Positions 5,123 to 24,672 of a stretch of DNA of 64,000 nt are shown in pieces; within the stretch, counting starts at the first letter, position 1, and every line of letters starts with the position of its first letter. The stretch is taken from the NCBI RefSeq assembly GCF_000252125.1, contig NZ_AHKF01000014.1, forward strand, positions 62,001-126,000. Direction: 5' to 3'. The DNA comes from Flavobacterium frigoris PS1 (GTDB lineage: Bacteria; Bacteroidota; Bacteroidia; Flavobacteriales; Flavobacteriaceae). A program made the position numbers and the translations under genes. The notes beneath the pieces are model-generated. The model was given only the letters and a program-made list of their open reading frames with translations, was not told the origin of the DNA and did no database searches.

Positions 5123-6715
5123 ATGAAAAATATATATAAACGATTATTGGGTATTTCTTTGTTCCTGCTGGTGCTTACATTTCCATCATGTACAAATGAT
5201 TTAAACCAATCTCCAGATAACGGAGATTCAGTTGCAGGTGAAGAGTTTTTTAGCTCGCCGGAATCGTATAAACAAAATTTAGCTAAACTATATGCGGGGT
5301 TTGCTACATCAGGTCAGCAAGGTCCTGCAGGAAAAGCAGATATTTCAGGTATTGATGAGGGGACAAGTCAATATGTGAGAGGGTACTGGATGATGCAAGA
5401 ATTGACAACTGATGAAGCTGTTATTGGATGGAATGACGGGTCTATTAAAGATTTTCATTCTCAAACATGGACTTCTTCGGATAGTTTTATTGAAGCTACT
5501 TTTGCACGTTTCTCTTTTCAAATTGTAAACTGTAATGAGTTTTTAAAACAAACTACTGATGAGAAATTGGCGGCTAGAGGAATAGATGCTGCATTAAAAG
5601 CAGAAATTGCTGTTTATAGAGCTGAAGCGCGTTTCTTGAGAGCGATGACGTACTGGCATTTGATTGATACATTTGGAGGTGGTTCATTGGTTACTGAAGA
5701 TTCGCCAAGTACTTTCTATTACCCAGAGTATGCAACTAGAGCAGAATTGTACAAATTCGTTGATGAAGAGTTAACTGCTATTACTCCGTTAATGAAAGCA
5801 CCAAAAACAAATGAGGCGTATCGTGTAGATCAGGCTGCCGCCTGGATGTTACAAGCTAAATTATACATGAATGCAAAAGTATATATAGGTACTGACAATT
5901 ACGCGGCTGCCGTTCCATTAATTACAAAAATTGTTGGTTCGCCTTATTCATTGCATAGTAATTATAATCAATTGTTTTTTGCTGATAATGATAAAAATGG
6001 AGCGCAAAACGAATTCATTTTTGCAATTGCTTTTGATGGTCTTCGTACACAAACTTATGGAGGAACTACTTTCTTGACGCATGCACCAGTAGGTGGAAGC
6101 ATGAAAGCAGCTGAATTTGGAATCAATGGTGGTTGGGCTGGTGTCAGAACTACTGCAGCATTTGTAGATAAGTTTACTGCGAATACCACTGATAGACGTG
6201 GACAGTTCTATACAGAAGGACAAACTAAAGAAATTAAAGATATAGGAACTTTTACTGATGGATATGCTATTCAAAAGTTTAGAAATGTAACTGTAAATGG
6301 AGTACAAGGTTCTGATAAGTCTGGAGATTTTTCAGATTCAGATTTTCCTATTTTCCGTTTAGCAGATGCGTATTTAATGTATGCAGAATGTTTCGTTAGA
6401 GGTGCTGGCGGAAATGCCACAACTGCTTTAGGATTTGTTAATGCTTTACGTACAAGAGCAATTGGAACTGCTGTAAATTCAGGAGACTTAACCTTGAATT
6501 TTATACTAGACGAGAGAGCTAGAGAATTACACTGGGAAGGACACAGAAGAACTGATTTAGTTCGTTTTGGTAAATTCACTGGTGGAGCTTATTTATGGCC
6601 TTTTAAAGGTGGAGTTTCTGGAGGAGCGCCAACACAATCATTTAGAGATTTATTCCCTATTCCTGCAAATGCTTTGTCATCAAATAGTAAACTACAACAA
6701 AACCCTGGATATTAA
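5123..6715 (+). CDS. susD: SusD/RagB-type glycan-binding lipoprotein
   Basis: This surface lipoprotein forms the lid on SusC and binds the glycan. The lipobox FPSC places the lipidated cysteine at residue 23. The body (530 residues) has the SusD-like N-terminal helical (TPR) region with RAEARFLRAMTYWHLIDTFG at about 171-190 and the C-terminal SusD/RagB signature LDERARELHWEGHRRTDLVR followed by FGKF. It ends with the typical LQQNPGY. The gene follows susC by 17 bases and precedes susE by 21 bases, so the three are one transcript. No defects seen. Confidence 0.96.
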   Translation: MKNIYKRLLGISLFLLVLTFPSCTNDLNQSPDNGDSVAGEEFFSSPESYKQNLAKLYAGFATSGQQGPAGKADISGIDEGTSQYVRGYWMMQELTTDEAVIGWNDGSIKDFHSQTWTSSDSFIEATFARFSFQIVNCNEFLKQTTDEKLAARGIDAALKAEIAVYRAEARFLRAMTYWHLIDTFGGGSLVTEDSPSTFYYPEYATRAELYKFVDEELTAITPLMKAPKTNEAYRVDQAAAWMLQAKLYMNAKVYIGTDNYAAAVPLITKIVGSPYSLHSNYNQLFFADNDKNGAQNEFIFAIAFDGLRTQTYGGTTFLTHAPVGGSMKAAEFGINGGWAGVRTTAAFVDKFTANTTDRRGQFYTEGQTKEIKDIGTFTDGYAIQKFRNVTVNGVQGSDKSGDFSDSDFPIFRLADAYLMYAECFVRGAGGNATTALGFVNALRTRAIGTAVNSGDLTLNFILDERARELHWEGHRRTDLVRFGKFTGGAYLWPFKGGVSGGAPTQSFRDLFPIPANALSSNSKLQQNPGY

Positions 6716-10893: not shown

Positions 10894-12801
10894 TTAAATT
10901 TTACCATTTTTAATTTCTTCCACAATTTCGGGATTCAATAGTGTTGAGGTATCACCAAAATTTGAATAGTCACCCTCGGCTATCTTACGAAGTATTCTAC
11001 GCATAATTTTTCCAGAACGTGTTTTTGGTAAGCCAGAAACAAACTGAATTTTATCTAATTTGGCAATGGGCCCAATTTGGTTAGAAACTTGTTGGTTAAT
11101 TTCTTTCATTAAATTCTCTCTGTCACGAGATTCACCAGTTTCCTTTAATATAACATAACCGTATAATGCATTTCCTTTTATGTCATGAGGAAATCCTACA
11201 ATTGCTGATTCGGCGACTGCCGGATGTTCATTTATGGCGTCTTCTATAGGAGCGGTTCCTAGATTATGGCCAGAAACAATCACCACATCGTCTACGCGCC
11301 CTGTAATTCTGTAATATCCTACTTCGTCACGTAAAGCGCCGTCACCAGTGAAATATTTGCCTGGAAAGGCAGTAAAATAAGTCTCTTTATATCTTTTATG
11401 ATCTCCCCAAATAGTTCTTGCAATTCCCGGCCATGGAAATTTAATACATAGTGATCCAACTACTTGATTGTCTTCAATTTCATTTCGTTTTTCATCCATT
11501 AATACCGGTTGAATTCCTGGTAATGGTAAAGTAGCATAGGTTGGTTTTGTAGGTGTTACAAAGGGAATTGGCGAGATCATAATACCTCCAGTTTCTGTTT
11601 GCCACCAGGTATCTACCACGGGACATCTTTTATCACCTACATGATCATTATACCAGTGCCAGGCTTCTTCATTAATAGGTTCTCCCACAGAGCCAATCAC
11701 CTTTAGGGATTTTAATTGAAATTTTTGTACGTAGTCTAAGCTTTCTTTTGCTAACGCACGAATAGCAGTAGGGGCAGTATAGAATTGATTTACATTGTGT
11801 TTTTCGATAATTTCCCAAAAGCGACTAAAGTCAGGATAGGATGGAACTCCTTCAAAAATAACTGTTGTTGCTCCGTTTAACAATGGCCCGTATAGAATAT
11901 AGGAGTGTCCTGTTATCCAGCCAATATCAGCAGTACACCAGAAAATATCATTGTCCTCGTAATTAAATACATTTTTGAAGGTATAGGCGGTATACACCAT
12001 ATATCCTGCAGTAGTATGTACCATTCCTTTTGGTTTCCCGGTTGAACCGGAAGTGTATAGGATAAACAATGGGTCTTCAGCATCCATTATTTCCGCTGCA
12101 TTATTATCTGATGCATCATCTAAAAGCGGTTGTAACCAGTGGTCACGTCCGTCCTTCATATTTATTACAGAATTAGTCCTCTTTACTACTAATACTTTTT
12201 CGACGCAAGGAGTGTTTACTAATGCTTCATCAATTATCCCTTTTAAATCTATAGTTTTATTACCGCGGTATCCGCCATCTGATGTGATTACCATTTTGCA
12301 ATCACTGTCATTTATTCTTGTAGTTACTGCAGAGGCTGAAAATCCTGCAAAAACTACGGAATGGATAGCACCAATTCTAGCACAAGCTAAAGTTGCAATA
12401 GCCAACTCAGGTATCATTGGTAAATAAATGCAAACGCGATCTCCTTTTTGGATGCCTTGTTCTATTAAAACATTTGCCATTTTACAAACACGTTGATGCA
12501 ACTCAGTGTAAGAGATGTGTAATGCTTCTTCGTTTGGGTCATTTGGCTCAAATATGATGGCTGTTTTGTCACCTTTTTTTGCAAGATGTCTGTCAATACA
12601 GTTTTTAGTGATATTCACTTTTGCATCGACAAACCATTTGATTTCGGCTTCAGCCATATTAAAGTCTACTACTTTGTCCCACTCTTGGTACCAAGTAAAG
12701 TTTTCCGATGCGATTTTGTCCCAGAATTTTTTAGGCTCACGAACTGATTTTTTGTATTCTTTAAAGTATTCTTCTAAGTTATTTATTTTATAACGACTCA
12801 T
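10894..12801 (-). CDS. acs: Acetyl-CoA synthetase
   Basis: The 635-residue AMP-forming enzyme makes acetyl-CoA from acetate, ATP and CoA in the cytoplasm. It has the N-terminal ACS segment (FWDKIASENFTWYQEWDKV), the P-loop YTSGSTGKPKGMVH near residue 250, the WWQTETGG motif, the hinge region YRITGRVDDVVIVSGHNLGT, and the C-terminal PKTRSGKIMRR with the catalytic, acetylatable Lys598. Length is close to the family norm of about 650. It is the last gene of a run that also encodes the porin, symporter, sensor and a PrpE-like paralogue, which supports acetate use. A strong terminator follows. Confidence 0.95.
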   Translation of the reverse strand: MSRYKINNLEEYFKEYKKSVREPKKFWDKIASENFTWYQEWDKVVDFNMAEAEIKWFVDAKVNITKNCIDRHLAKKGDKTAIIFEPNDPNEEALHISYTELHQRVCKMANVLIEQGIQKGDRVCIYLPMIPELAIATLACARIGAIHSVVFAGFSASAVTTRINDSDCKMVITSDGGYRGNKTIDLKGIIDEALVNTPCVEKVLVVKRTNSVINMKDGRDHWLQPLLDDASDNNAAEIMDAEDPLFILYTSGSTGKPKGMVHTTAGYMVYTAYTFKNVFNYEDNDIFWCTADIGWITGHSYILYGPLLNGATTVIFEGVPSYPDFSRFWEIIEKHNVNQFYTAPTAIRALAKESLDYVQKFQLKSLKVIGSVGEPINEEAWHWYNDHVGDKRCPVVDTWWQTETGGIMISPIPFVTPTKPTYATLPLPGIQPVLMDEKRNEIEDNQVVGSLCIKFPWPGIARTIWGDHKRYKETYFTAFPGKYFTGDGALRDEVGYYRITGRVDDVVIVSGHNLGTAPIEDAINEHPAVAESAIVGFPHDIKGNALYGYVILKETGESRDRENLMKEINQQVSNQIGPIAKLDKIQFVSGLPKTRSGKIMRRILRKIAEGDYSNFGDTSTLLNPEIVEEIKNGKI

Positions 12802-12820: not shown

Positions 12821-14728
12821 TTAGTGTTGTTTTTTATTATAAGTTCCAATTTCATATTTTTCCAAAACGGAGGCGATCTCTTCAACAATGGCTTCATCGT
12901 CGATAGTTGATGGGATTTGGTAGTCATCACCATCAGCAATACTGCGCATTAATTTTCTAAGAGTTTTTCCTGAACGTGTTTTGGGTAGGCGTTCTACGAT
13001 GACTACATTTCGTAAGGAAGCAACCGCGCCAATTTGTTGCCGGACTAATTGTATGATTTCCTGTTCCAATTGGAAATGTTCAATGGAATCGTTTAATTTG
13101 GTTACCACCAAAGCCAATGGAGTTTGTCCTTTTAGCGCATCATTTATCCCAATTACGGCGCACTCAGCAACCGAATTATGCGAAGATACAATTTCTTCCA
13201 TTTCTGACGTAGAAAGACGGTGTCCTGCTACGTTTATAACATCATCTACTCTGCCTGTTATAAAAATATAATCATCATCATCTTTATAGCCACCATCACC
13301 AGAGAAGTAATATCCGGGGAATTGCTCTAGATAACCAGCTTTAAATCGAGGGTTGTCGTTCCATAAATCAAGTAATGTTCCGGGAGGTAGTGGTAATTTA
13401 ATGACCACATATCCTTGTTCATTAGGGCCAACTTCAGTTCCTTCTTCGTCAAATATTTTGATGTCATAGCCACAAACCGCTTTCCCCACCGAACCTCGTT
13501 TTATGGGCAGCTGTTCAACTCCCATCATGTTAGCTATCATAGGCCAGCCAGATTCCGTTTGCCACCAATGGTCGATCGCAGGAACAGGAATATGTTCTGC
13601 ATACCATTCTAATGTGGCAATATCGCAACGTTCTCCAGCTAAAAACTGTGTTTTTAAAGAACTCAAATCGTATTTTTTTATGAAATCTCCATTAGGATCT
13701 TCTTTTTTGATGGCACGAATTGCGGTAGGAGCAGTAAACATCGCGTTTACTTTGTGCTCTGAAATAACTCTCCAAAAGGTGCTTGCATCAGGTGTTTTTA
13801 TCGGTTTGCCTTCAAAAATAACGGTAGCATTTCTATTGATTAATGGGCCATAAACAATAAAACTGTGTCCAACAACCCAGCCCACATCAGAGGCTGCCCA
13901 GAAAACGTCATCTTCTTTTACATTATAAATGTGTTGCATGGAAAATTTTAGGGCAACAGCACAACCACCAGTGTCTCGAACCACTCCTTTTGGTTTTCCA
14001 GTTGTTCCTGAGGTGTAAAGGATATATAAAGGGTGCGTGGTATTCAGTGGAACACAAGGAACTTCCTCAGAACCATAGACTAAAGCATCATAATCAACAT
14101 CATACTTTTTAAACGGAACTCGTGCTCCTAATTTCCTGTTGAGAACAATCACTTTTTTAGGTCGGTGGGACGCTAGTTCAATGGCTTCGTCCACTAATGG
14201 TTTATAAGTGATTAAACGGTCCACTTCAATTCCTGAAGAAGCGGTTATAATTAGGCGCGGTTTGCAGTCGTCAATTCTGATTGCTAATTCATGAGGGGCA
14301 AAGCCACCAAAAACAACTGAATGAGTCACTCCAATTCTGGCACAAGCTAACATTGCAAAGGCAGCTTGGGGAATCATAGGCATATAGATTACTGCTGTGT
14401 CTCCTTTTTTTAATCCCAAAGATTGCATGCCTCCAGCAAGTTTCGCCACTTCGGACTTAACTTCTGAAAAAGTGTATTTTTTCACGGTTTGGGTAACTGG
14501 GGAATCATAAATTAAGGCTACTTGATCACCATATCCATCTTGTATGTGTTTGTCTAATGCTAAATAGCAAATGTTCAACTCTCCGTCTTTGTACCAAAGC
14601 GGGTATCCATTTTGATCTTTCGATAAAATTATTTCTGGTTTGTTGTACCACTCAATTGCGTCTGCTTGTTCAGCCCAAAATTTTTCGGGTTGATTAATAC
14701 TACTCGTGTAAAAATCTTTGTAATTCAT
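12821..14728 (-). CDS. prpE: PrpE/ACSS3-like acyl-CoA synthetase (propionate or other short acid)
   Basis: A second AMP-forming synthetase of exactly 635 residues, clearly a paralogue of the adjacent acs but of a different subfamily. It carries YTSGTTGKPKGVVRDTGG (the RDTGG ending is typical of propionyl-CoA synthetases), WWQTESGWPM in place of the acetate-type WWQTETGG, FITGRVDDVINVAGHRLST, and PKTRSGKTLRK with catalytic Lys588. Propionate is the likely substrate; butyrate-like acids are possible. Nineteen bases separate it from acs and 18 from the response regulator, so all are cotranscribed. Symbol given by subfamily resemblance. Confidence 0.85.
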   Translation of the reverse strand: MNYKDFYTSSINQPEKFWAEQADAIEWYNKPEIILSKDQNGYPLWYKDGELNICYLALDKHIQDGYGDQVALIYDSPVTQTVKKYTFSEVKSEVAKLAGGMQSLGLKKGDTAVIYMPMIPQAAFAMLACARIGVTHSVVFGGFAPHELAIRIDDCKPRLIITASSGIEVDRLITYKPLVDEAIELASHRPKKVIVLNRKLGARVPFKKYDVDYDALVYGSEEVPCVPLNTTHPLYILYTSGTTGKPKGVVRDTGGCAVALKFSMQHIYNVKEDDVFWAASDVGWVVGHSFIVYGPLINRNATVIFEGKPIKTPDASTFWRVISEHKVNAMFTAPTAIRAIKKEDPNGDFIKKYDLSSLKTQFLAGERCDIATLEWYAEHIPVPAIDHWWQTESGWPMIANMMGVEQLPIKRGSVGKAVCGYDIKIFDEEGTEVGPNEQGYVVIKLPLPPGTLLDLWNDNPRFKAGYLEQFPGYYFSGDGGYKDDDDYIFITGRVDDVINVAGHRLSTSEMEEIVSSHNSVAECAVIGINDALKGQTPLALVVTKLNDSIEHFQLEQEIIQLVRQQIGAVASLRNVVIVERLPKTRSGKTLRKLMRSIADGDDYQIPSTIDDEAIVEEIASVLEKYEIGTYNKKQH

Positions 14729-14746: not shown

Positions 14747-15109
14747 TTATTGAATTAGGTTTTGTACTTGTTCTACTAATTTTTTTAAGGAGAAGGGCTT
14801 GACCACATATAAATTTGCACCTAATGAGAGTCCTTTTTCAATATCCTTTTCCTTATTCTTAGCAGAAAGAAAGATGACTTTACAATGTTGCAATCGTTCG
14901 TCTTTTTTTATTTGTTCCAATGTGGCAAAACCATCAACCATGGGCATCATCACATCTAGGATTATGACATCGGGAAGCTGGTTGTTCAGAATGTCTAATG
15001 CTTCTTGTCCGTCACGAGCAATGAATACTTCAAAATTGTTTTTTTTGAACGTATATTCAAGTGACATAACAATATTAGGCTCGTCATCTACAATTAAAAT
15101 TTTATTCAT
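14747..15109 (-). CDS. Receiver-only response regulator
   Basis: The 120-residue protein is a single CheY-like receiver: acidic pair Asp8/Asp9, phospho-acceptor Asp52 in IILDVMMP, Ser82 at the Thr/Ser position and Lys104 in VVKPF. No output domain follows. It starts 2 bases after the stop of the symporter-fused kinase, so it is that kinase's cognate partner. In the comparable CrbS/CrbR and MxtR/ErdR systems of Proteobacteria the regulator carries a LuxR-type DNA-binding domain; here that is absent, so output must pass through another protein. Confidence 0.92.
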   Translation of the reverse strand: MNKILIVDDEPNIVMSLEYTFKKNNFEVFIARDGQEALDILNNQLPDVIILDVMMPMVDGFATLEQIKKDERLQHCKVIFLSAKNKEKDIEKGLSLGANLYVVKPFSLKKLVEQVQNLIQ

Positions 15110-15111
15110 CT

Positions 15112-17814
15112 CTATTCGTTTTCGGTTGTATTATAATTAGGTAAGGTAAAAATAAAAGTTGCCCCTTTTTGCGGTGTGCTTTCTACCCAAATTTTACCTT
15201 TATGATGTTCTATGATTTGTTTACAAATGGCAAGTCCTAGCCCGCTTCCAATTGGTTTCTTTACGTTTTGGTCACGTGATTGATAAAATTTATCAAAAAT
15301 GGGTTCAAAATCGTCAGCCTTAATTCCTGCTCCATTATTGTGAATGCTTACTTTTATAACGTCTTTTTTGTCAATTATCGAAATGGTTATTTTTCCATCC
15401 GTTTTTGAACAGAATTTAATAGCATTTGATAATAAGTTATGAATTACCTGAATGATTCTCTCCTCGTCATAAAAGACTTTTATTTCGGTTTTGATAAATT
15501 CTACAGTGATGTTCTGGTTGATAATTAACTGTTTTACGGAATCTAAAGTGTTAACTATGGTTTTGGTAATGTCATTTTTTGACAGATAAAGTTTCTGTTT
15601 TCCTGTTTCGAATTTCTCTAAATCCAGAATTTTGTCAATCAAACGATTCAAACGATCTGATTCGGATATAATACTTTTTAGAAACTGCTTTCTAACTTCT
15701 TTTGGAATATCATCGTCATCATCATGTAGGATTTCAGTTGCTGCGCGAATAGCAGTAATTGGTGTTCTTAATTCATGGGTCACCGTGTCCAGAAATTCAT
15801 CTTTTTGAATGTCTTTATTGATTAATTCCTGATTGGCATTTTTTAACTGTTCTGATATTTTTTTTAGTTCATTCGAAGTGTCTGTCAGTTTTTTGTTGAT
15901 GATAATATTCTCTTTTGATTCCTCCAGGATGCGAAGCACTTCAGGCAGGCTGATCTTGTCTTCCTTGGCTACGCTCGATATTAAAATTTTGGCGGAGGCC
16001 GTCCCAATATGACCCGTCAATAGATTTTCGGCAAATTTTATAAATCGGGGATCGGCAGTGGCAATGTTTTTATCAATGTTATATTTTAAATTGAATATGC
16101 CTAATGCTCGCTTAGTTCTTTCCTCACCAAGGAAGCGTTGCAATACTTTTTGAATGTCAGATATATATGCGGTTCCTTTCCATACAAAGGCATTTTCATG
16201 GTTGGTGATGTATTTGTCTATGTCCACAAACATTTCGGCATAATTGCGTTCTCTGTAATTTCCTTTGAAACTTACTGAAATGGCAAGGAAGCTAATTGTG
16301 TTGACGAACAAACTCCAGAAAAAAGCATGGGTTATAGGTTCTAAATAGTCCAAACCAAAAAGATGAAACGGTTTTAACAGTTCGATTCCCCAAGGTCCAT
16401 TTTTTATAAACGTACTGGTAGATTTTGTAACCCCAATCGCATAAGGAATTAAAAGGGTATAAAGACTTATCGAAAATCCAAGAATAATTCCTGTAACAGC
16501 TCCCTTTTTTGAGCCTCTTTTCCAAAATAAAGCGCCGAAAAATGCGGGAGCCAATTGCGCTATTAACACAAAAGAAACTAAGCCAATTGATACTAAAGAA
16601 TAATCTAAAATAAAAATACGGTATATCGCATAAGCCAATATAATAAGGGAGAAAATACCAATTTTTCTGCTGTTTACAATTCGTTTACGGTTCTTTTCAG
16701 ACGATTTGTTTTGCAGAGCGCCAATAAAACCATACGGAATCAAAAGGTTGTTGCTTAACATGGTCGCCAAGGCAATTGAAGAAACAATAATCATAGATAT
16801 TGCTGCTGAAAAGCCACCAAGAAACACAATAACCGTAAGGACGTTATTATTGAAGTGTTGCGGAATCAAAAGAGAGTAGGTGTCTGAATTTAGTCCTTGC
16901 CCTTCAAATAAGATGTTTCCTCCCCAAGCAATTGGGAAAACAAAAAGATTAAATAGTAACAAATACAATGGGAAAAGCCAAATAGCTGTTCGGATATGTG
17001 TTTCTTTATTGTTTTCAACAATGGCAGTGTGAAATTGTCTTGGTAAAAGAAAAATGGCGAATGTGGATAAAATACAAAGGAAGAGCCAATTAATTCCATT
17101 TGTTAAATCGCCAATTGTATTTTTTTTGTCGAAATCCTTTAGGACTGCTGCTTTAGTATAGATGTCGCCAAAACCATCAAATACAAAATAGGTCACATAA
17201 ATTCCGATGATCAAAAAGAAAACCAATTTTAAAATTGATTCCATTGCAACTGCGGTGACGATTCCGCTTCTTTTTTCTGAGGCATCGACATATTTTGTCC
17301 CGTAATAGGATGCGAATAAGGCGAGCGCAATGCAAACATAAGTGGTGGTGTCAGAAAAAATGTTTGAGCTATATTGAGTTTTGGTGACAATATAGAAGGT
17401 ATCTGAAATCGATTTTAGTTGTAAAGAGATGTAAGGTAAGATACCAAAAACACAAATTAAGGTAACCAATGCTCCCAAAAAACGACTATTTCCGTATCGT
17501 AAAGAAATGAAATCTGCAATACTGGAGATTTTATTTACTCTCGAAATTCGGATAATTCTTTTTAGGATAATCATCCAGGTAGGGATAATTATGATTGGGC
17601 CTAAATATATTGTTAAATAGCTTAATCCAGAATCTGCAGCTACACCAATGCTTCCGTAATAAGTCCAAGCAGTGCAATATACAGCTAATGATAGGGAATA
17701 AATATAGGGATTGTTTGTCCATTTAGAATGGCGCTTTTTTTCAGCCCAATGTGCTATGTAAAAAAGGATTGATACATAGAGAAACAGAATCAGTAAAAGT
17801 CCTACGCTACTCAT
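15112..17814 (-). CDS. Sodium:solute symporter-fused sensor histidine kinase (CbrA/CrbS-like)
   Basis: The 900-residue membrane protein has an SSS (SLC5-type) transporter domain with about a dozen membrane spans over residues 1-510, a linker/STAC-like region (about 540-620), a short coiled coil near 630-665, a HisKA domain with phospho-accepting His680 in THELRTPITAIRAATE, and a C-terminal ATPase domain with HNLLSNAIKFC, NNGAG and GSGLGLAICKQI. It likely senses extracellular acetate or a related acid, or flux through its transporter domain. It overlaps the preceding 64-residue gene by 8 bases and is followed 2 bases later by the receiver gene. The signal is inferred from the operon; the domain order is directly visible. 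Confidence 0.93.
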   Translation of the reverse strand: MSSVGLLLILFLYVSILFYIAHWAEKKRHSKWTNNPYIYSLSLAVYCTAWTYYGSIGVAADSGLSYLTIYLGPIIIIPTWMIILKRIIRISRVNKISSIADFISLRYGNSRFLGALVTLICVFGILPYISLQLKSISDTFYIVTKTQYSSNIFSDTTTYVCIALALFASYYGTKYVDASEKRSGIVTAVAMESILKLVFFLIIGIYVTYFVFDGFGDIYTKAAVLKDFDKKNTIGDLTNGINWLFLCILSTFAIFLLPRQFHTAIVENNKETHIRTAIWLFPLYLLLFNLFVFPIAWGGNILFEGQGLNSDTYSLLIPQHFNNNVLTVIVFLGGFSAAISMIIVSSIALATMLSNNLLIPYGFIGALQNKSSEKNRKRIVNSRKIGIFSLIILAYAIYRIFILDYSLVSIGLVSFVLIAQLAPAFFGALFWKRGSKKGAVTGIILGFSISLYTLLIPYAIGVTKSTSTFIKNGPWGIELLKPFHLFGLDYLEPITHAFFWSLFVNTISFLAISVSFKGNYRERNYAEMFVDIDKYITNHENAFVWKGTAYISDIQKVLQRFLGEERTKRALGIFNLKYNIDKNIATADPRFIKFAENLLTGHIGTASAKILISSVAKEDKISLPEVLRILEESKENIIINKKLTDTSNELKKISEQLKNANQELINKDIQKDEFLDTVTHELRTPITAIRAATEILHDDDDDIPKEVRKQFLKSIISESDRLNRLIDKILDLEKFETGKQKLYLSKNDITKTIVNTLDSVKQLIINQNITVEFIKTEIKVFYDEERIIQVIHNLLSNAIKFCSKTDGKITISIIDKKDVIKVSIHNNGAGIKADDFEPIFDKFYQSRDQNVKKPIGSGLGLAICKQIIEHHKGKIWVESTPQKGATFIFTLPNYNTTENE

Positions 17815-18087: not shown

Positions 18088-19839
18088 CTAATGTGTTGCT
18101 TCACCAGCACCAGAGGGTATTCTAATGTGTTCAACAATGTCTTGGACATCTTGGGGAGGAGCAGGAGTGAAACTTTTCACTGCAAAAGCAACTGCAAAGT
18201 TTACAATCATAGCAATCGTTCCGAAACCTTCAGGGGATATTCCGAACCACCAGCTTTCTTTCAAGCCAGCTACCGCGTCTTTTCCACCATCAAAAAGGCC
18301 AAATTTGAATTTCAACATATAGAAAAGCATCAATAGCAATCCTGTAATCATACCTGCTATAGCACCTTCCTTATTCATTTTTTTATCAAAAATCCCAAGA
18401 ATAATTGCTGGGAATAGAGAAGCAGCAGCTAATCCAAAAGCAAGTGCGACAACGGCGGCGACAAAGCCAGGGGGATTAATTCCGAAATAACCTGCAATGA
18501 TTACTGCAACTGCAGCAGCTCCACGAGCAGCCCAAAGCTCATTTTTCTCAGAGATGTTTGGGTTAATCATTTTCTTGATGATATCGTGAGATACTGAAGC
18601 TGAAATAACTAATAGTAAACCTGCGGCAGTAGATAACGCAGCAGCTAATGCTCCGGCTGCTACTAATGCAATAACCCAATTAGGTAAGTCTGCAATTTCA
18701 GGATTAGCTAGTACCATGATGTCTTTATCAATAGTCAGCTCACTTCCTTTATTTCCTTTTGCCTCTTGGCTTGCTAAAAAGGCAGCGTCTTTAGAGTTGT
18801 CGTTGTAATATTGAATTTTACCATCTCCATTTTTATCTTCAAATTCTAATAGGCCTGTAGTTTCCCATTTAGTAAACCAAGCTGGCATAGAAGAATACTC
18901 TTTTCCGTTTACCGTTTCAATCAAATTAGTTTTAGCAAAAACAGCAATAGCGGGAGCGGTAGTGTATAAAATAGCAATTAAAACTAATGCGTATCCAGCT
19001 GATTTTCTTGCATCTTTTACTCTTTTTACGGTAAAAAAGCGAACAATTACGTGTGGTAATCCTGCAGTACCTACCATTAAGGCTAATGTAATTGCAAAGA
19101 CATCAACCATTGATTTTGTTCCGTTTGTGTATACTGAAAATCCAAGATCTGTAGAAAGACCGTTTAGTTTATCTAACAAATAAGTATCAGTTCCTAAAAC
19201 TTTTCCTCCCATTCCTAATTGAGGAACCGGATTACCAGTCATTTGAATAGAAATAAAGATAGCCGGAACCATGAAAGCAAATATTAAGACACAATACTGC
19301 GCTACTTGGGTATAAGTAATCCCCTTCATTCCACCTAAAGTGGCATAGAACAAAACGATGATCATTCCTATAATAACACCTGTGTTAATGTCAACTTCTA
19401 AAAATTTAGAAAATACTAATCCTACTCCACGCATTTGTCCTGCTACGTAAGTAAAAGAAACAACTAAAGCGCATATTACAGCAACCGTTCTTGCAGTATT
19501 AGAGTAATAACGTTCTCCAATGAAATCAGGCACTGTAAATTTCCCAAATTTTCGAAGATATGGCGCAAGTAAAAGAGCAAGCAGTACATAGCCACCGGTC
19601 CAGCCCATTAAGTAAACAGCACCGTCATAACCATCAAAGGAAATGATACCGGCCATCGAGATGAAAGACGCTGCACTCATCCAGTCAGCAGCTGTTGCCA
19701 TTCCGTTTGCTAATGGAGAAATCTCTCCTCCTGCAACATAAAATTCTTTAGTTGATCCGGCGCGTGACCAGATTGCAATTCCAATATAGAGGGCAAATGT
19801 TATCCCAACAATAATATAGGTCCAAGTTTGTAAATCCAT
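18088..19839 (-). CDS. actP: ActP-like sodium:acetate symporter (VC_2705 subfamily)
   Basis: The 583-residue inner-membrane symporter has about 13 hydrophobic spans. It begins MDLQTWTYIIVGITFALYIG and has the SSS signature regions FYVAGGEISPLANGMATAAD and WMSAASFISMAG, and LGGMKGITYTQVAQY. A hydrophilic insertion of about 60 residues near 325-385 (including EFEDKNGDGKIQYY) is typical of the VC_2705 subfamily, which works with a DUF4212 subunit; that subunit is encoded 28 bases upstream. Acetate (or another small carboxylate) is the likely substrate given acs and prpE in the operon. Confidence 0.92.
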   Translation of the reverse strand: MDLQTWTYIIVGITFALYIGIAIWSRAGSTKEFYVAGGEISPLANGMATAADWMSAASFISMAGIISFDGYDGAVYLMGWTGGYVLLALLLAPYLRKFGKFTVPDFIGERYYSNTARTVAVICALVVSFTYVAGQMRGVGLVFSKFLEVDINTGVIIGMIIVLFYATLGGMKGITYTQVAQYCVLIFAFMVPAIFISIQMTGNPVPQLGMGGKVLGTDTYLLDKLNGLSTDLGFSVYTNGTKSMVDVFAITLALMVGTAGLPHVIVRFFTVKRVKDARKSAGYALVLIAILYTTAPAIAVFAKTNLIETVNGKEYSSMPAWFTKWETTGLLEFEDKNGDGKIQYYNDNSKDAAFLASQEAKGNKGSELTIDKDIMVLANPEIADLPNWVIALVAAGALAAALSTAAGLLLVISASVSHDIIKKMINPNISEKNELWAARGAAAVAVIIAGYFGINPPGFVAAVVALAFGLAAASLFPAIILGIFDKKMNKEGAIAGMITGLLLMLFYMLKFKFGLFDGGKDAVAGLKESWWFGISPEGFGTIAMIVNFAVAFAVKSFTPAPPQDVQDIVEHIRIPSGAGEATH

Positions 19840-19867: not shown

Positions 19868-20128
19868 TTATTCGTCGTAGCCGTATTTTTTGTCTAATTT
19901 GTTCATCAATCGAACATAAACAAATATCAGTATGACAAATGCATAAATTGAACCTTGTTGTGCAAACCAAAAACCGAGTGGGAAACCACCTAATTTAATA
20001 GAGTCTAATGCTGTTTTGAAAAGGATTCCGGCTCCATAAGAAACCGCAAACCAAATGCTTAATAAAATCAGAAGGTATCTTAGGTTTTCCTTCCAATATG
20101 CTGTGGCTTTGTCTTGTTTATCGCTCAT
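19868..20128 (-). CDS. DUF4212 sodium/substrate symporter small subunit
   Basis: The 86-residue protein starts MSDKQDKATAYWKENLRYL and has two membrane spans (about 16-38 and 52-74) separated by KLGGFPLGFWFAQQGS, the conserved core of the DUF4212 family. This family is nearly always encoded directly upstream of a VC_2705-type symporter, as here. It is cotranscribed with the porin (27-base gap) and the symporter. Confidence 0.92.
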   Translation of the reverse strand: MSDKQDKATAYWKENLRYLLILLSIWFAVSYGAGILFKTALDSIKLGGFPLGFWFAQQGSIYAFVILIFVYVRLMNKLDKKYGYDE

Positions 20129-20155: not shown

Positions 20156-21394
20156 TTATAGATAAATCATTGCTTGCAAAGTAATCGTGTTTACCGATTT
20201 GTTAGTGGCATATTTTAAAGTTTGGTACTCTAACGTCAGCTTAGAATTATGTCCGCTGAAAAATGCATTAGCACCAATACCCAATTGAGAAGCATTATCA
20301 TTTAAAGCATCTATTTGTCTTTCGTCGTAAGAAACATAAGGTTGGAAACGTGTTTTTGATTTTCCTGGAAGTACATAACCAAGGTGTGCATGAACCATTG
20401 ACCCTGTTTCATAAGTAGTTCCTAGTCTGTAATCTTTTCCGTAATCAGTGTTTTGATATAAGGCGTATGCTGTTAGGGCAGCACCTTTTGTCCCTACAGG
20501 GACGTCATAAAAAGCATCAAGTCCAAAAATGGTCACATTCTCACCTCTTAAGTTTCCAGCGGCATCAGCAAGTACAGATCCATTAGGGTGTGAAAAGAAA
20601 CCCGCTCCAATGTTGAATACCTTTTTTGTTCCTAAATAAGTACCCACTTTATAAGGTAAAAAGTTGCTTTCAGAATCTAAAAAGCCATATTCAAAATAAC
20701 CAGCGTATGTTCTTCCAGCTTCTTTTGAGCCTAATAATCTGGCACCAGTGTAAGTTGCTGGACCATTGTTTACAGGTGTTGTAGAAGCTTGTAAATTATT
20801 TGTAGATGCCCCGTTTATAGCAACGCGATATTGAAATTTACCAAAAGTACCTTTTGCGAATGCTCCAATATGTCTTGCAAATTGATCAGATAAACCTAAT
20901 GTTGCCCATGCTTGTCTTTGGTTGTCTAAGGTCATTAAGTTTAAGGTACTTTGATTATTTAAACGAGAGATTCCGTTCCAATAATGTAATCCTCCTCCAA
21001 CTGCATTGTCCTTTCCTAGACTGTATTGCACATAAGCATCATGCATGAATAGTTGGGAACCATCCCCTTTTCCTGTTGGACTCATCGTATCTACGTTTAA
21101 ACTGTTAAGTCCAAAATGGGTTACAATTAAGAAGTCTTTATTGATTTGCGCATACATCAATACGCGAGCTCTTCTGACACTGAAGTCTAAGTCGGCTTGT
21201 TCGTTGCCGTTTCCGTCTAAAGGGCGGTCAGAATTGTATTGCCCCCATATCTGTGCCCAAGATATTACTCTAAGGTACTTTGAACCATCTTCATTCAAAT
21301 TGAATTTCATTCCGGCACCGTAATCGGGTGAACCTTGAGAAAAGCCTTTTAAAGTGAACAGCAGCATGACTGCAATCAAATAAATTTTTTTCAT
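20156..21394 (-). CDS. Predicted outer-membrane porin for the carboxylate operon
   Basis: The 412-residue protein has a signal peptide (MKKIYLIAVMLLFTLKGFSQ), then alternating hydrophobic and aromatic strands throughout, such as YLRVISWAQIWGQYNSD and RRARVLMYAQINKDFLIVTH, ending with LTLEYQTLKYA and TITLQAMIYL. The pattern is that of a beta-barrel porin of the phosphate-selective-porin/DcaP-like kind. As the first gene of the acetate run it probably lets short carboxylates cross the outer membrane. Substrate is inferred only from context. A possible promoter (TAGACTTTG on the minus strand, about 21446-21454) lies upstream but has one extra base relative to TAnnTTTG. Confidence 0.8.
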   Translation of the reverse strand: MKKIYLIAVMLLFTLKGFSQGSPDYGAGMKFNLNEDGSKYLRVISWAQIWGQYNSDRPLDGNGNEQADLDFSVRRARVLMYAQINKDFLIVTHFGLNSLNVDTMSPTGKGDGSQLFMHDAYVQYSLGKDNAVGGGLHYWNGISRLNNQSTLNLMTLDNQRQAWATLGLSDQFARHIGAFAKGTFGKFQYRVAINGASTNNLQASTTPVNNGPATYTGARLLGSKEAGRTYAGYFEYGFLDSESNFLPYKVGTYLGTKKVFNIGAGFFSHPNGSVLADAAGNLRGENVTIFGLDAFYDVPVGTKGAALTAYALYQNTDYGKDYRLGTTYETGSMVHAHLGYVLPGKSKTRFQPYVSYDERQIDALNDNASQLGIGANAFFSGHNSKLTLEYQTLKYATNKSVNTITLQAMIYL

Positions 21395-21501
21395 GATAAA
21401 TTAAGTTTTTGGTTAGTAAAATGGTTAGTTTTAATAGTGCCAAAGTCTAATTTTTTGTTAAGAAAAAAAATTATGATATATGAAATTGTAAAGTACTATA
21501 G

Positions 21502-21921
21502 CTAATCCTTGAAACGTTCCCACTTTATAAGCATGAACTTGTCGCCTAGTTCAGTTATTATCATGCCGGCGCCAGATAGTAAATCTTTGTTTTTTATATA
21601 TTCTATAAGCTCTAAATGGTTAAATATCTTATAGGTGGGGTGGTAGTTGGCATGGGAGGGCTTCTTTATGTTGAACGATTTTACCCAATTGCTGATGGTG
21701 ACATGCGAGACCCCGATTATACGTTCTATTTCACGGTAGCTAAGCCCTTCAAGGTATAATTGTAATGCCTTGGTAACATAGTAGTCGTCTATTTTTTTTC
21801 CAATTTTATTGACAGTAAAAAAATAGTTGCATTTTTTGCATAAATACCTTTGTTTACTGTTAATGACGCCGCTTTTTATGATTTGATTCCCTTGGCATTT
21901 CGGACAGGCTAAAATCTCCAT
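21502..21921 (-). CDS. Zinc-ribbon/HTH protein derived from an IS1-type transposase; candidate operon regulator
   Basis: From the Met at 21919-21921 the protein has 139 residues: a CPKC...CKKC zinc ribbon (about residues 5-33; CPKCQGNQIIKSG, RYLCKKCNYFF) as in the InsA/IS1 N-terminus, a helix-turn-helix (LSYREIERIIGVSHVTISNW, about 61-80), and a C-terminal segment of about 55 residues that I do not recognise, ending MLIKWERFKD. No DDE catalytic domain and no terminal inverted repeats were found, so it is not an active transposon. An upstream in-frame ATG at 21957 is less likely because the added residues are AT-rich filler and overlap the probable promoter region. It lies 107 bases upstream of the porin on the same strand and is divergent from the DUF294 gene. 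A DNA-binding regulatory role is my inference. Confidence 0.75.
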   Translation of the reverse strand: MEILACPKCQGNQIIKSGVINSKQRYLCKKCNYFFTVNKIGKKIDDYYVTKALQLYLEGLSYREIERIIGVSHVTISNWVKSFNIKKPSHANYHPTYKIFNHLELIEYIKNKDLLSGAGMIITELGDKFMLIKWERFKD

Positions 21922-22143
21922 GTATATAAATTTTGCATAAATATAGTAAATTAGCACTTATGTTTAAAGTAATATTGTAAATAAAAGACTAAATATTTGC
22001 GGAAGCCTTATTTATATTGAAAATTTAATATAATTATGGCAAAAAACTGTGTTTTTTTGTATTTGAGAGTAAATTGCTTTTAAAAGACTGCGACTTAGAT
22101 ACGAGCATTTTTTTTTGTATTTTTAAATATTAATAAACTGTTT

Positions 22144-24063
22144 ATGAAAAATTCAATAGCTGAACGGATTGCAGATTTTCTTAAAAATCACCCTCCCTTT
22201 TGTAGTCTTAGCTTGGTCGATTTAATTGCTATATCAAAGGAGTCGCAAGTTCTTCATTTGGAAAAAAAAGAAGTCCTTTTTAATATTAATGACCAGCCTC
22301 ATTCCTTTTTTTATATTGTAAAAGATGGGGCGGTTGCGCTATCGGTTATTTATGATACAGAGAAAGTTCTTATCGACGAATGTGACGAAGGCGATATTGT
22401 TGGTTTACGACCCTTTTTTGCAAAGGATGCTTACCTAATGACTGCCGAAGCGAGCGAGGAAAGTCTACTATATGCCATTCCTATAGCTGTTTTTAAACCT
22501 TATATATTTGAAAACTCAGAGGTTTCTAGTTTTTTATTGGAGAGTTTTGCCTCTAATACGCGCAACCCCTACGATAAGGAAAACAAGGGAAAGCTAATTT
22601 CTGAAAGTGTAAGTTATAATGAACGGGAGGACACGATTCAATATTTCAAACCTATTTCATACAGCGCAAATCCTATTACAGCCAATAAAATGGATTCTGT
22701 GAAATCAATAGCGGAAACGATGACGCGACGTAAAATAGGGAGTGTTATTATTCAGGAAAACCAACTTCCCATTGGTATTATAACCGATAAAGATTTGCGT
22801 TCTAAAATAGCCACTGGTTTGTTTACTATAGAAAGTAGCGCTGAGCAGATTATGTCCGTACCTGTTGTTACCGTTAAGGCCAACGGATCTGTTGCTGAAA
22901 CCCAGTTGATGATGCTCCAGCATAATATTGGTCATTTGTGTGTGACTTCAGATGGCAGCAGTGAATCTGAAATTATAGGTATTATCTCTGAGCATGATGT
23001 TGTGGTGGCTCAGGCAAATAATCCGGGAGTATTGGTGAAACAAACGAAACGTGCTGAAGGTGCGCATGAGCTTAAAGTAGTCAGGGAAAATCTTACCAAA
23101 TTAATCAAAAATGCATTGGATGAAAATATTCCAATAGCACATCTCTGTCAGATTGTGGGTGAAATTAATAAGGCAATTACGAGTAGGGCAATTGAATTGT
23201 CAATTATGAAAATGGGGGAGGAGCCTCCTGTGCCCTTTGCTTGGTTAAATATTGGGAGTCAGGGACGAAAAGAGCAGTTGTTATTGACGGATCAAGATAA
23301 TGCTTTGGTTTTTGAAGATGTAGTGGAAGAAAGATATGATGCTATTAAAAAGTATTTTCTACAACTAGCTAATAATGTAACGAATATTTTAAATGTTGTT
23401 GGGTATGAATTTTGTCCGGCAGATATGATGGCTAGTAATCCATTGTGGTGTAAGTCATTAAAAGAATGGAACGCTCAATATGACACTTGGATACATAGTC
23501 CGGGTGAGAAAGGAGTTCTTATGTGTTCCATTTTTTTTGATTATGACTTTGTATATGGTAAGAAAGAGTTGGTTGAAGCGATTACTTCTGCTATCTTTAA
23601 AAATGTAAGTAACAACCAGATTTTCTTTGCTTATTTGGGAAGTGATGCCTTAAAAAGCCCACCTCCGTTAGGTTTCTTCAGGCAGTTCTTGGTAGAGAGG
23701 GACGGGGAGCATAAGGACACTTTTGATGTAAAAAGTCGGGGATTAATGCCTTTGATTGATGCAGCTAGGTTATTGTCTTTGAATCAGGAAATTACAGGTG
23801 TAAATAATACACTCGTAAGGTTTAAGGAATTAGCTGTTTTAGAGCCGCAAAACACCGCGATTTATGAAGCCTGTTCTGAAGCGTTTTCTGTTTTGCTAAA
23901 ATTCAGAACGCAGGAAGGTTTTGCAAATGATTCAGGAGGAAGGTATTTAGACCTAAATAAACTGACAAAATTAGATAAGGTGAAACTTAAAAATGCTTTT
24001 CACCCCATTAGTGATGTTCAAGAGATCTTAAGAACTCGTTTCCAACTTACTTATTTTACTTAG
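22144..24063 (+). CDS. Cyclic-nucleotide-binding-like, CBS-pair, DUF294 nucleotidyltransferase-like protein
   Basis: The 639-residue cytoplasmic protein has a CAP_ED-like sensor domain (about 15-140; FYIVKDGAVALSVIYD), a CBS pair (about 180-300; MTRRKIGSVIIQENQLPIGI and ISEHDVV), a DUF294 putative nucleotidyltransferase domain with GSQGRKEQLLLTDQDNALVF near 375-394, where G-S and D-x-D match the Pol-beta-type active site, and a DUF294 C-terminal domain to the end. In Proteobacteria this protein is often encoded with ActP/DUF4212 and a DnaQ-like exonuclease, which is also the arrangement here. It may adjust carboxylate uptake by covalent nucleotide transfer; the substrate is unknown. Confidence 0.88.
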   Translation: MKNSIAERIADFLKNHPPFCSLSLVDLIAISKESQVLHLEKKEVLFNINDQPHSFFYIVKDGAVALSVIYDTEKVLIDECDEGDIVGLRPFFAKDAYLMTAEASEESLLYAIPIAVFKPYIFENSEVSSFLLESFASNTRNPYDKENKGKLISESVSYNEREDTIQYFKPISYSANPITANKMDSVKSIAETMTRRKIGSVIIQENQLPIGIITDKDLRSKIATGLFTIESSAEQIMSVPVVTVKANGSVAETQLMMLQHNIGHLCVTSDGSSESEIIGIISEHDVVVAQANNPGVLVKQTKRAEGAHELKVVRENLTKLIKNALDENIPIAHLCQIVGEINKAITSRAIELSIMKMGEEPPVPFAWLNIGSQGRKEQLLLTDQDNALVFEDVVEERYDAIKKYFLQLANNVTNILNVVGYEFCPADMMASNPLWCKSLKEWNAQYDTWIHSPGEKGVLMCSIFFDYDFVYGKKELVEAITSAIFKNVSNNQIFFAYLGSDALKSPPPLGFFRQFLVERDGEHKDTFDVKSRGLMPLIDAARLLSLNQEITGVNNTLVRFKELAVLEPQNTAIYEACSEAFSVLLKFRTQEGFANDSGGRYLDLNKLTKLDKVKLKNAFHPISDVQEILRTRFQLTYFT

Positions 24064-24672
24064 ATGATTTTATTTAATTGGTTTAAAAAAGACAAGAAAA
24101 ACTATCCTGAATTTTGGCAAGAATATTTGGCCTGCTTTGAGTCTAGATCAGATAAAAACTATCAAAAACGGTATGTGGTTTTTGACACTGAAACAACAGG
24201 TTTAGATGTGCGAAGCGATGTGATCTTGTCCGTTGGCGCGATAGCGATTTCAGGGAATTCTATTATAGTGAATGATTATTTAGAGGTTTTTGTGCAGCAG
24301 GATGTTTTTAAAACGGAATCAGTTTCCATTCACGGTATTTTGAAGGATGGGAAAGAAAAAAAACTAACCGAAACTCAAGCGATAATTCGGTTTCTTGATT
24401 TTGTTAAAGATTCCACTTTGGTCGGTCATCATGTACGTTTTGATGTCAATATGGTGAATGCGGCATTACAGCGGATGGGTTTGGGGAAACTCAAAAATCA
24501 CAATATGGATACCGATATAATGTACCAAAAATTTAAAGGTTTACCAGAAGACCAGCACTCTAGTCTGGATGAATTATGTCAAATTTTTAAAATTCAAAAA
24601 AGTGACCGGCATACTGCTGCAGGGGATGCCTTTATTACGGCCTTGATTTTTTTGCGACTTAAAAATAAGTAG
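24064..24672 (+). CDS. DnaQ-like 3'-5' exonuclease of the ActP neighbourhood
   Basis: The 202-residue protein has a DEDD-type exonuclease fold: Exo I VVFDTETTGLD (about residues 38-48), Exo II VGHHVRFDVNMVNAAL (about 120-135) and Exo III with DRHTAAGDAF (about 178-187), the H-x5-D pattern of DEDDh enzymes. Its ATG follows the DUF294 stop without a single intervening base (TAG then ATG), so translation is coupled. It is not the replicative epsilon subunit by context; it goes with the DUF294 protein and the carboxylate genes. RNA, DNA or a nucleotide-modified protein could be the substrate. Confidence 0.88.
   Translation: MILFNWFKKDKKNYPEFWQEYLACFESRSDKNYQKRYVVFDTETTGLDVRSDVILSVGAIAISGNSIIVNDYLEVFVQQDVFKTESVSIHGILKDGKEKKLTETQAIIRFLDFVKDSTLVGHHVRFDVNMVNAALQRMGLGKLKNHNMDTDIMYQKFKGLPEDQHSSLDELCQIFKIQKSDRHTAAGDAFITALIFLRLKNK

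Follow-up and report, generated by a model that had tools for sequence, protein, structure and literature searches.

Short-chain fatty acid use by Bacteroidota is ecologically important, and the closest described regulatory arrangement is the CrbS/CrbR system (MxtR/ErdR; Pseudomonas, Vibrio, Sinorhizobium). In that system a transporter-kinase fusion is linked to acs and a symporter gene, and a conserved DNA motif precedes the acs and transporter genes. In Pseudomonas the activator of acs and actP is CrbR, a LuxR-family regulator, and the activation requires the ACTU motif (PMC5715377). A LuxR-family partner has likewise been reported for Sinorhizobium (PMC9100948). A second point of comparison is InsA of the insertion sequence IS1, for which it is reported that the zinc finger and the helix-turn-helix (HTH) are needed, that the protein binds both IS1 ends and represses its own promoter, and that this promoter partly overlaps the left end (PMC12428005).

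The locus studied here lies in a window of 64,000 nucleotides of Flavobacterium frigoris PS1 (contig NZ_AHKF01000014.1, positions 62,001 to 126,000). It shares with CrbS/CrbR the association of a putative transporter-kinase fusion with acs and a symporter gene, as well as a conserved DNA motif before acs and transporter genes. In contrast to CrbR, a LuxR-family protein acting with the ACTU motif, the locus has a lone receiver, a separate zinc-ribbon/HTH protein (named ZnHTH here) and another motif, and the gene context suggests that acs and the transporter may be controlled here in response to acetate. ZnHTH resembles InsA in having a zinc ribbon and HTH with no catalytic domain, and the binding of InsA to both IS1 ends is paralleled by one site at the ZnHTH promoter and an inverted site behind the gene. 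Unlike InsA, ZnHTH has 139 residues with a conserved C-terminal segment, is fixed in an operon and is followed by no transposase frame. We consider it likely, on comparative sequence grounds, that ZnHTH is a domesticated InsA-like local transcription factor of the acetate/propionate-use operon, triggered via kinase and receiver. A literature search, mostly outside subscription journals, returned by title or abstract start no earlier paper on ZnHTH and none on such a regulator of short-chain fatty acid use in Bacteroidota.

The minus strand of 21502-21921 is a single open frame of 139 residues, and the plus-strand frame across the same positions is riddled with stops. A GTG further upstream would give a protein of 151 residues; the ATG at 21921 is favoured because a conserved DNA block abuts it. 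ZnHTH consists of a zinc ribbon (residues ~6-36), an HTH (~46-82) and a C-terminal segment (86-139) of beta-alpha-beta-beta type. The initial annotation had described an IS1-type zinc ribbon and HTH without a DDE nuclease, ending in MLIKWERFKD; the frame confirms this C-terminus, and the domain models bear out the rest. The NCBIfam IS1_IS1595 zinc domain was found at 39.8 bits (cut-off 28) and Pfam HTH_23 at 26.1 bits (cut-off 24.6), while the Pfam InsA zinc ribbon remained under its cut-off (21 against 26.1 bits), as did the NCBIfam IS1 transposase model (75.6 against 100 bits, residues 6-113), which is covered only to position 111 of 199. The domain-model search (NCBIfam, Pfam) gave no match to a DDE domain. 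All 34 members of set A2 match the IS1/IS1595 zinc model.

The predicted structure of whole ZnHTH is of middling quality (pLDDT 77.8, pTM 0.42), and the C-terminal 54 residues folded alone are predicted as beta-alpha-beta-beta with pLDDT 85.9. Foldseek returned no match at E 0.001 or better for either model. Among the families listed, the top structural match of the whole model is the GcrA DNA-binding domain (Z 7.2, HTH portion only), and that of the C-terminus alone is KCTD5 (Z 5.0), level with many unrelated entries; with Z values no higher than 5, the C-terminus also bears a weak likeness to halves of ferredoxin-like, NikR and PII folds. Residues ~57-124 resemble 2JML (E 0.0035) and the FevR model (33.8 bits), which we take to be MerR-like, in the HTH followed by a strand and a helix. 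ZnHTH differs from these domains in its score far under the FevR cut-off of 180 and in the zinc ribbon in front, and the likeness is partial.

Downstream of ZnHTH, on the same minus strand and beginning after a gap of 107 bp, the operon starts with a porin gene (20156..21394), whose ExtI-porin match of 66 bits is under the cut-off of 150. It is followed by a DUF4212 symporter small subunit (19868..20128), a VC_2705-family sodium/solute symporter (18088..19839) and a CrbS-like kinase (15112..17814). The kinase comprises a sodium-symporter-like N-terminus, a linker, HisKA and HATPase; the last two are clear, and the SSF match is sub-threshold at 18.8 bits (cut-off 22.8). The linker, which gave no match to the STAC model, is presumably STAC by its position. 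Next come a receiver-only response regulator of 120 residues (14747..15109; Pfam Response_reg at 4-115), a propionate-CoA ligase-like protein (12821..14728; 755 bits, model cut-off 955) and the acetate-CoA ligase Acs (10894..12801; 959 bits, cut-off 725). The initial annotation had already noted that the regulator of the operon has no DNA-binding domain, and the lone receiver agrees with this. Its description of a porin-ActP-sensor-acs operon holds for the neighbours, with the correction that the "ActP" is a VC_2705-family symporter with a DUF4212 subunit. Response regulators were found in 40 ZnHTH loci (86-154 residues) and in none of 75 others, many of which are cut before that gene.

Our comparative survey revealed that this arrangement is widely conserved. 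In the species-genome scan, the best 80 of 555 stretches with a match were taken as Flavobacterium-type loci (records titled Flavobacterium, or bins and isolates titled Flavobacteriaceae, Flavobacteriales, Flavobacteria or Bacteroidetes). In these best 80 of 555, ZnHTH shows 83-99% identity over 138-139 residues, and GAGMIITELGDKFMLIKWERFK is invariant when the window protein is aligned with nine of these. Of the 246 genomes examined from the order, 65 contain full-length ZnHTH (4 more, set aside, gave nothing but weak matches), and one of the 65, G105, has two full-length copies, each with a kinase. Full-length orthologues are present in 30 of 395 genomes of the phylum (three weak matches, G379, G406 and G417, set aside), and matches above 200 bits in 24 of 295 genomes of the class (7 genomes at 83-123 bits set aside); these three samples overlap one another.

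Of the best 80 of 555 loci, 77 have a kinase match further down the ZnHTH strand, and in the other 3 the contig ends first; in L044 the match is the start of the kinase only. Among the 246 genomes of the order, 65 carry ZnHTH, 59 the kinase linker and 58 both. In 56 of these 58 the two share contig and strand, and the linker follows ZnHTH at a distance of 5.0-6.1 kb; in 2 they are on separate contigs. The sole kinase of the order without ZnHTH (G169) is on a contig whose end cuts its symporter gene. The kinase is also present in 28 of the 30 ZnHTH genomes of the phylum and in all 13 further ZnHTH genomes of the class that were tested. These co-occurrence figures are inflated because ZnHTH and the kinase share an operon, and joint loss accounts for part of them. 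The gene acs2 is downstream on the ZnHTH strand in 38 of 39 ZnHTH-bearing stretches taken from the order (exception L153) and divergent from ZnHTH in L160, L161, L230 and L232.

The order found almost without exception behind ZnHTH in many families of the class is porin, transporter, CrbS-like kinase, receiver-only regulator and propionate/acetate-CoA ligases. The transporter between porin and kinase is exchangeable, an MFS metabolite/proton symporter being present in loci inspected. The initial annotation had asked whether homologues with the C-terminal segment regularly adjoin actP, acs or DUF4212 genes; acs2 and the kinase are the constant neighbours, and the DUF4212/VC_2705 symporter pair is downstream in only 20 of the best 80 of 555 loci. 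ZnHTH behaves as a fixed operon gene and not as a mobile one. The divergent DUF294/exonuclease pair, likewise named in that annotation, is present in the window (22144-24672) but is not conserved: it adjoins ZnHTH in 7 of the best 80 of 555 loci and is found beyond acs in some others, as a variable companion of the operon and not of the regulator.

Alignment of 32 of the 80 Flavobacterium loci revealed two near-invariant blocks, one at the start codon and one behind the stop codon. The upstream site TATATTTATGCAAAATTTATATA (21923..21945, minus strand) abuts the start codon within a longer conserved block (21922-21959), occupies -24..-1 wherever a match was obtained in Flavobacterium (76 loci) and is a candidate autoregulatory operator over the promoter; part of the block may be core promoter. 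The downstream site TATATGAAATTGTAAAGTACTATA (21477..21500, plus strand), inverted relative to the upstream one, is right behind the stop codon and precedes TTAGACTTTGG (21440..21450, minus strand), a conserved box and putative operon promoter that we take to resemble the Bacteroidetes -7 element. The distance from the centre of the downstream site to the end of this -7-like box is 49 bp in 48 of 79 loci, and at least 63 have a spacing of 48-50 bp. The absence of transposon ends stated in the initial annotation stands in part: no classical inverted repeat with one arm on either side of the gene emerged when 21380-22160 was searched for repeats, but the gene is flanked, in opposite orientation, by two related sites of ~23 bp (about TATAnnnTTTGCTAAAnnnnTATA).

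The sites were described by the pattern TATA-N(3-9)-G(C/T)(A/T)AA-N(3-5)-TATA, with the third letter optional and the downstream copy inverted. After exclusion of 3 loci with fewer than 60 bases upstream, it was found upstream on the gene strand in 76 of 77 Flavobacterium loci (from the best 80 of 555) and inverted downstream in 77 of 77; in 38 other loci the counts were 31 and 25, against 0.5-1.8 in shuffles. On the opposite strand it matched upstream in 20 of 77 Flavobacterium and 21 of 38 other loci and downstream in 1 of 77 and 3 of 38, and the upstream site is therefore partly symmetric or tandem. Among 12 loci taken after the pattern was fixed, 5 have the upstream site, 7 the downstream site and 9 at least one (shuffles 0.16). 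Site density amounts to 5.09 per kb at ZnHTH flanks versus 0.0148 in the rest of 138 loci, a difference of ~340-fold. A stricter form was derived from the sites of one family; each of the 12 genomes of this family that were scanned has a single perfect match to it, adjacent to ZnHTH. A matrix trained on other taxa was significant upstream in 20 of 20 Flavobacterium loci; in downstream regions the matrix alone reached significance in no more than 5 of 20 loci from Flavobacterium and 9 of 34 from elsewhere. In local alignments of upstream with downstream regions of 24 chosen non-Flavobacterium loci, mostly ones already known to have the downstream site, the inverted orientation exceeded the direct one in 22 (37.5 vs 29.2). 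The same alignment of 20 Flavobacterium loci gave no clear separation (inverted 32.9, direct 29.9, shuffled 30.0).

Furthermore, the site was found away from ZnHTH. The matrix, for which upstream regions of 33 non-Flavobacterium loci were the sole training set, was applied to 76 loci (1.27 Mb) and gave, at 13 bits or more, 97 matches at ZnHTH flanks (training sites included) and 9 elsewhere. Four matches outside the flanks reached at least 17 bits, and every one of them is before an acs gene (L158, L234, L243, L244); the other five have 13.1-13.9 bits and no acs-type placement. Two of these, L243 from G700 and L244 from G752, are kinase-receiver-acs2 stretches of genomes that have ZnHTH on another contig, and the acs site is the best of the whole stretch in both (17.5 and 17.8 bits vs 8.8 and 9.9 for the next-best). 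A regulator role is proposed for ZnHTH because conserved sites at two gene flanks and before unlinked acs genes fit one. The loose pattern gave 11 matches in the window's own genome vs 9 in the control, no excess that would mark a wider regulon, and no match in 13 kinase loci without ZnHTH, a weak comparison with loci mostly richer in G+C (0.39-0.65). A third pattern match in the window (5862-5885) lies inside a 530-residue frame that is SusD-like by eye and is probably due to chance. In L017 (1780-2386) a second porin-DUF4212-symporter cassette, with no ZnHTH frame left there, has an upstream-like site of 16.8 bits, reached by 0 of 300 shuffles; its downstream-like site is a pattern match, the matrix giving 7.6 bits elsewhere, a value reached by 24 of 300 shuffles.

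Domain make-up, gene context, co-occurrence and sites can be read directly from the DNA, and from them we infer binding, sign of control and autoregulation. ZnHTH would recognise the ~23-bp site and, bound at its own promoter, would keep its own production in check, in the way InsA acts at the IS1 promoter. From the inverted copy, ~50 bp ahead of the operon promoter, bound ZnHTH would activate or gate transcription, and in other genomes the second copy before acs would have the same effect, with acs as the most constant target. As suggested by the sites, ZnHTH is very probably an autoregulated, acs-specific transcription factor. The most likely trigger would be the CrbS-like kinase and the lone receiver acting on the conserved C-terminal segment, so that a borrowed protein of transposase origin would do for this two-component system what the LuxR-type domain does in CrbR. 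The link from receiver to ZnHTH, taken by itself, has in our estimate roughly an even chance. If true, the proposal would provide a clear bacterial case of a transposase-type DNA-binding part recruited to regulate one pathway as its transcription factor, and likewise of a two-component system with its DNA-binding output as a separate protein. The comparison gives one protein, two exact candidate operators per genome and one candidate contact motif, which makes the proposal testable.

The candidate contact motif, W(E/D)(R/K)F at the C-terminus, is present in 149 of 158 locus entries, or 125 of the 134 proteins that are distinct; in G149 two contigs share the ZnHTH gene, and the 3' fragment represents it in this count. 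Eight of the nine entries without it are from kinase-less genomes, and the ninth has the conservative WQRF; among 12 later loci, two, both with a kinase, have WERL. In six small genomes of one genus ZnHTH is directly before acs2, with neither kinase nor receiver in the stretch, and of these 6 none has the site pattern and 1 has a matrix match. G394 has ZnHTH and acs2 ~2 kb apart without a kinase, and in G500, outside the class, ZnHTH precedes porin and symporter and a search for the kinase did not find one. WERF is lost in these eight of nine kinase-less genomes and kept in the ninth, G017, which has a receiver between ZnHTH and acs1. This pattern fits a contact between C-terminus and receiver, in a correlation that rests on three lineages. 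Thirteen phylum genomes outside the class have the kinase without ZnHTH, and a receiver match is beside the kinase in 12 of them; a lone receiver therefore does not by itself demand ZnHTH. The initial annotation had proposed ZnHTH as the missing DNA-binding output of the operon. The regulator part of this proposal is strengthened by the sites on both flanks it had named and before unlinked acs genes, and the part of the receiver stays conditional, favoured by WERF and opposed by the 13 kinase genomes without ZnHTH and by seven ZnHTH-acs genomes without a kinase.

The idea of complementarity, by which receivers in loci without ZnHTH should carry a DNA-binding domain of their own, failed: the longest frame there has 164 residues; two of the frames, of 68 and 77 residues, were wrong ones, and one of these is really 122 residues. 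In two loci without ZnHTH (L171 6733-7068, L177 6769-7107) a gene with an ArsR-type HTH by eye is just before the kinase and is possibly a different DNA-binding partner of kinase and receiver.

The ZnHTH-acs pairs without kinase or receiver allow another explanation, in which ZnHTH regulates acs and its own gene alone by sensing a small molecule or zinc, for example with its C-terminal segment, and kinase and receiver act otherwise. The predicted fold of that segment, with its weak ferredoxin-like, NikR and PII resemblance, would suit such a sensor. We nevertheless hold this to be possible but doubtful, as WERF is gone from these kinase-less versions, the six of one genus mostly lack the sites too, and kinase and ZnHTH are retained together even on separate contigs (G700, G752). 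ZnHTH might also be a pure repressor of its own gene and the operon, relieved by kinase and receiver. The downstream site, centred ~50 bp upstream of the putative -7 box, is in an activator-type position, such a distance from a promoter box being usual for activators, and speaks against pure repression, which we entertain only tentatively. In its favour, the upstream site covers the stretch just before the ATG, and InsA, of the same zinc-finger/HTH design, acts as a repressor (PMC12428005).

The conserved sites themselves could be core promoter elements, with ZnHTH acting elsewhere. One family's upstream site contains TATATTTG, which we take to look like a Bacteroidetes -7 box, and when one mismatch is allowed in the stricter form the same letters recur away from ZnHTH in three of 12 genomes. 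Since the downstream copy has the opposite orientation and a -7-like box of its own at a distance of ~49 bp, and the strong copies away from ZnHTH are only before acs genes, this explanation appears improbable. That ZnHTH is an ordinary IS1-family transposase fragment or remnant, here by chance, has only its best family model, the IS1 transposase, to recommend it. Such a reading is already contradicted by synteny and conservation: the gene is single-copy in the F. frigoris PS1 genome, in strict synteny across families, with a conserved C-terminus, no DDE domain and no classical ends, and we give it almost no credence.

How closely ZnHTH is related to IS1 elements was addressed at its C-terminus and at its sites. 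The C-terminus may conceivably be a relic of the IS1 DDE domain; the joint profile alignment reaches residue 115-116, over the first DDE strand. The C-terminal half alone gave no match above shuffles against four IS1 transposases. Small relatives (L235-L242) provide a weak bridge: L235 comes out on top (E 9e-4) when the ZnHTH C-terminal model is run against 8 sequences and 3200 shuffles, and with the bridge model two of 7 ZnHTH segments outrank 2800 shuffles, as do two of five IS1 segments against 2000, in a comparison whose noise includes one shuffle at E 0.0043. Both direct comparisons of the ZnHTH and IS1 C-termini fail, and the IS1 model lifts no bridge sequence above shuffles. The ZnHTH sites were matched to no IS end, and inspection of 4 IS1-type and 8 small relatives showed no evident site-like inverted ends except for one pair at L237. 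It is conceivable, and in our view rather unlikely, that an IS1-type element was domesticated nearly whole, its InsA-like half becoming the output of the kinase system and its inverted ends the ~23-bp operators, with copies later placed before acs elsewhere.

The pair at L237 (1470-2019) belongs to a distant relative whose gene is flanked by an inverted pair of TATA-type arms. The small relatives L235-L242 (from G626, G613, G781, G739, G633 and G713) are zinc-ribbon/HTH proteins of 134-147 residues without a full DDE domain; G633 has five such matches, and the three sequences taken from it are all different. Proteins of this type perhaps form a larger family of InsA-like regulators. At ~3054 of L156 (G379:C3), the same type of zinc ribbon is followed by a LacI-type HTH, as judged by eye, in a frame of 400 residues.
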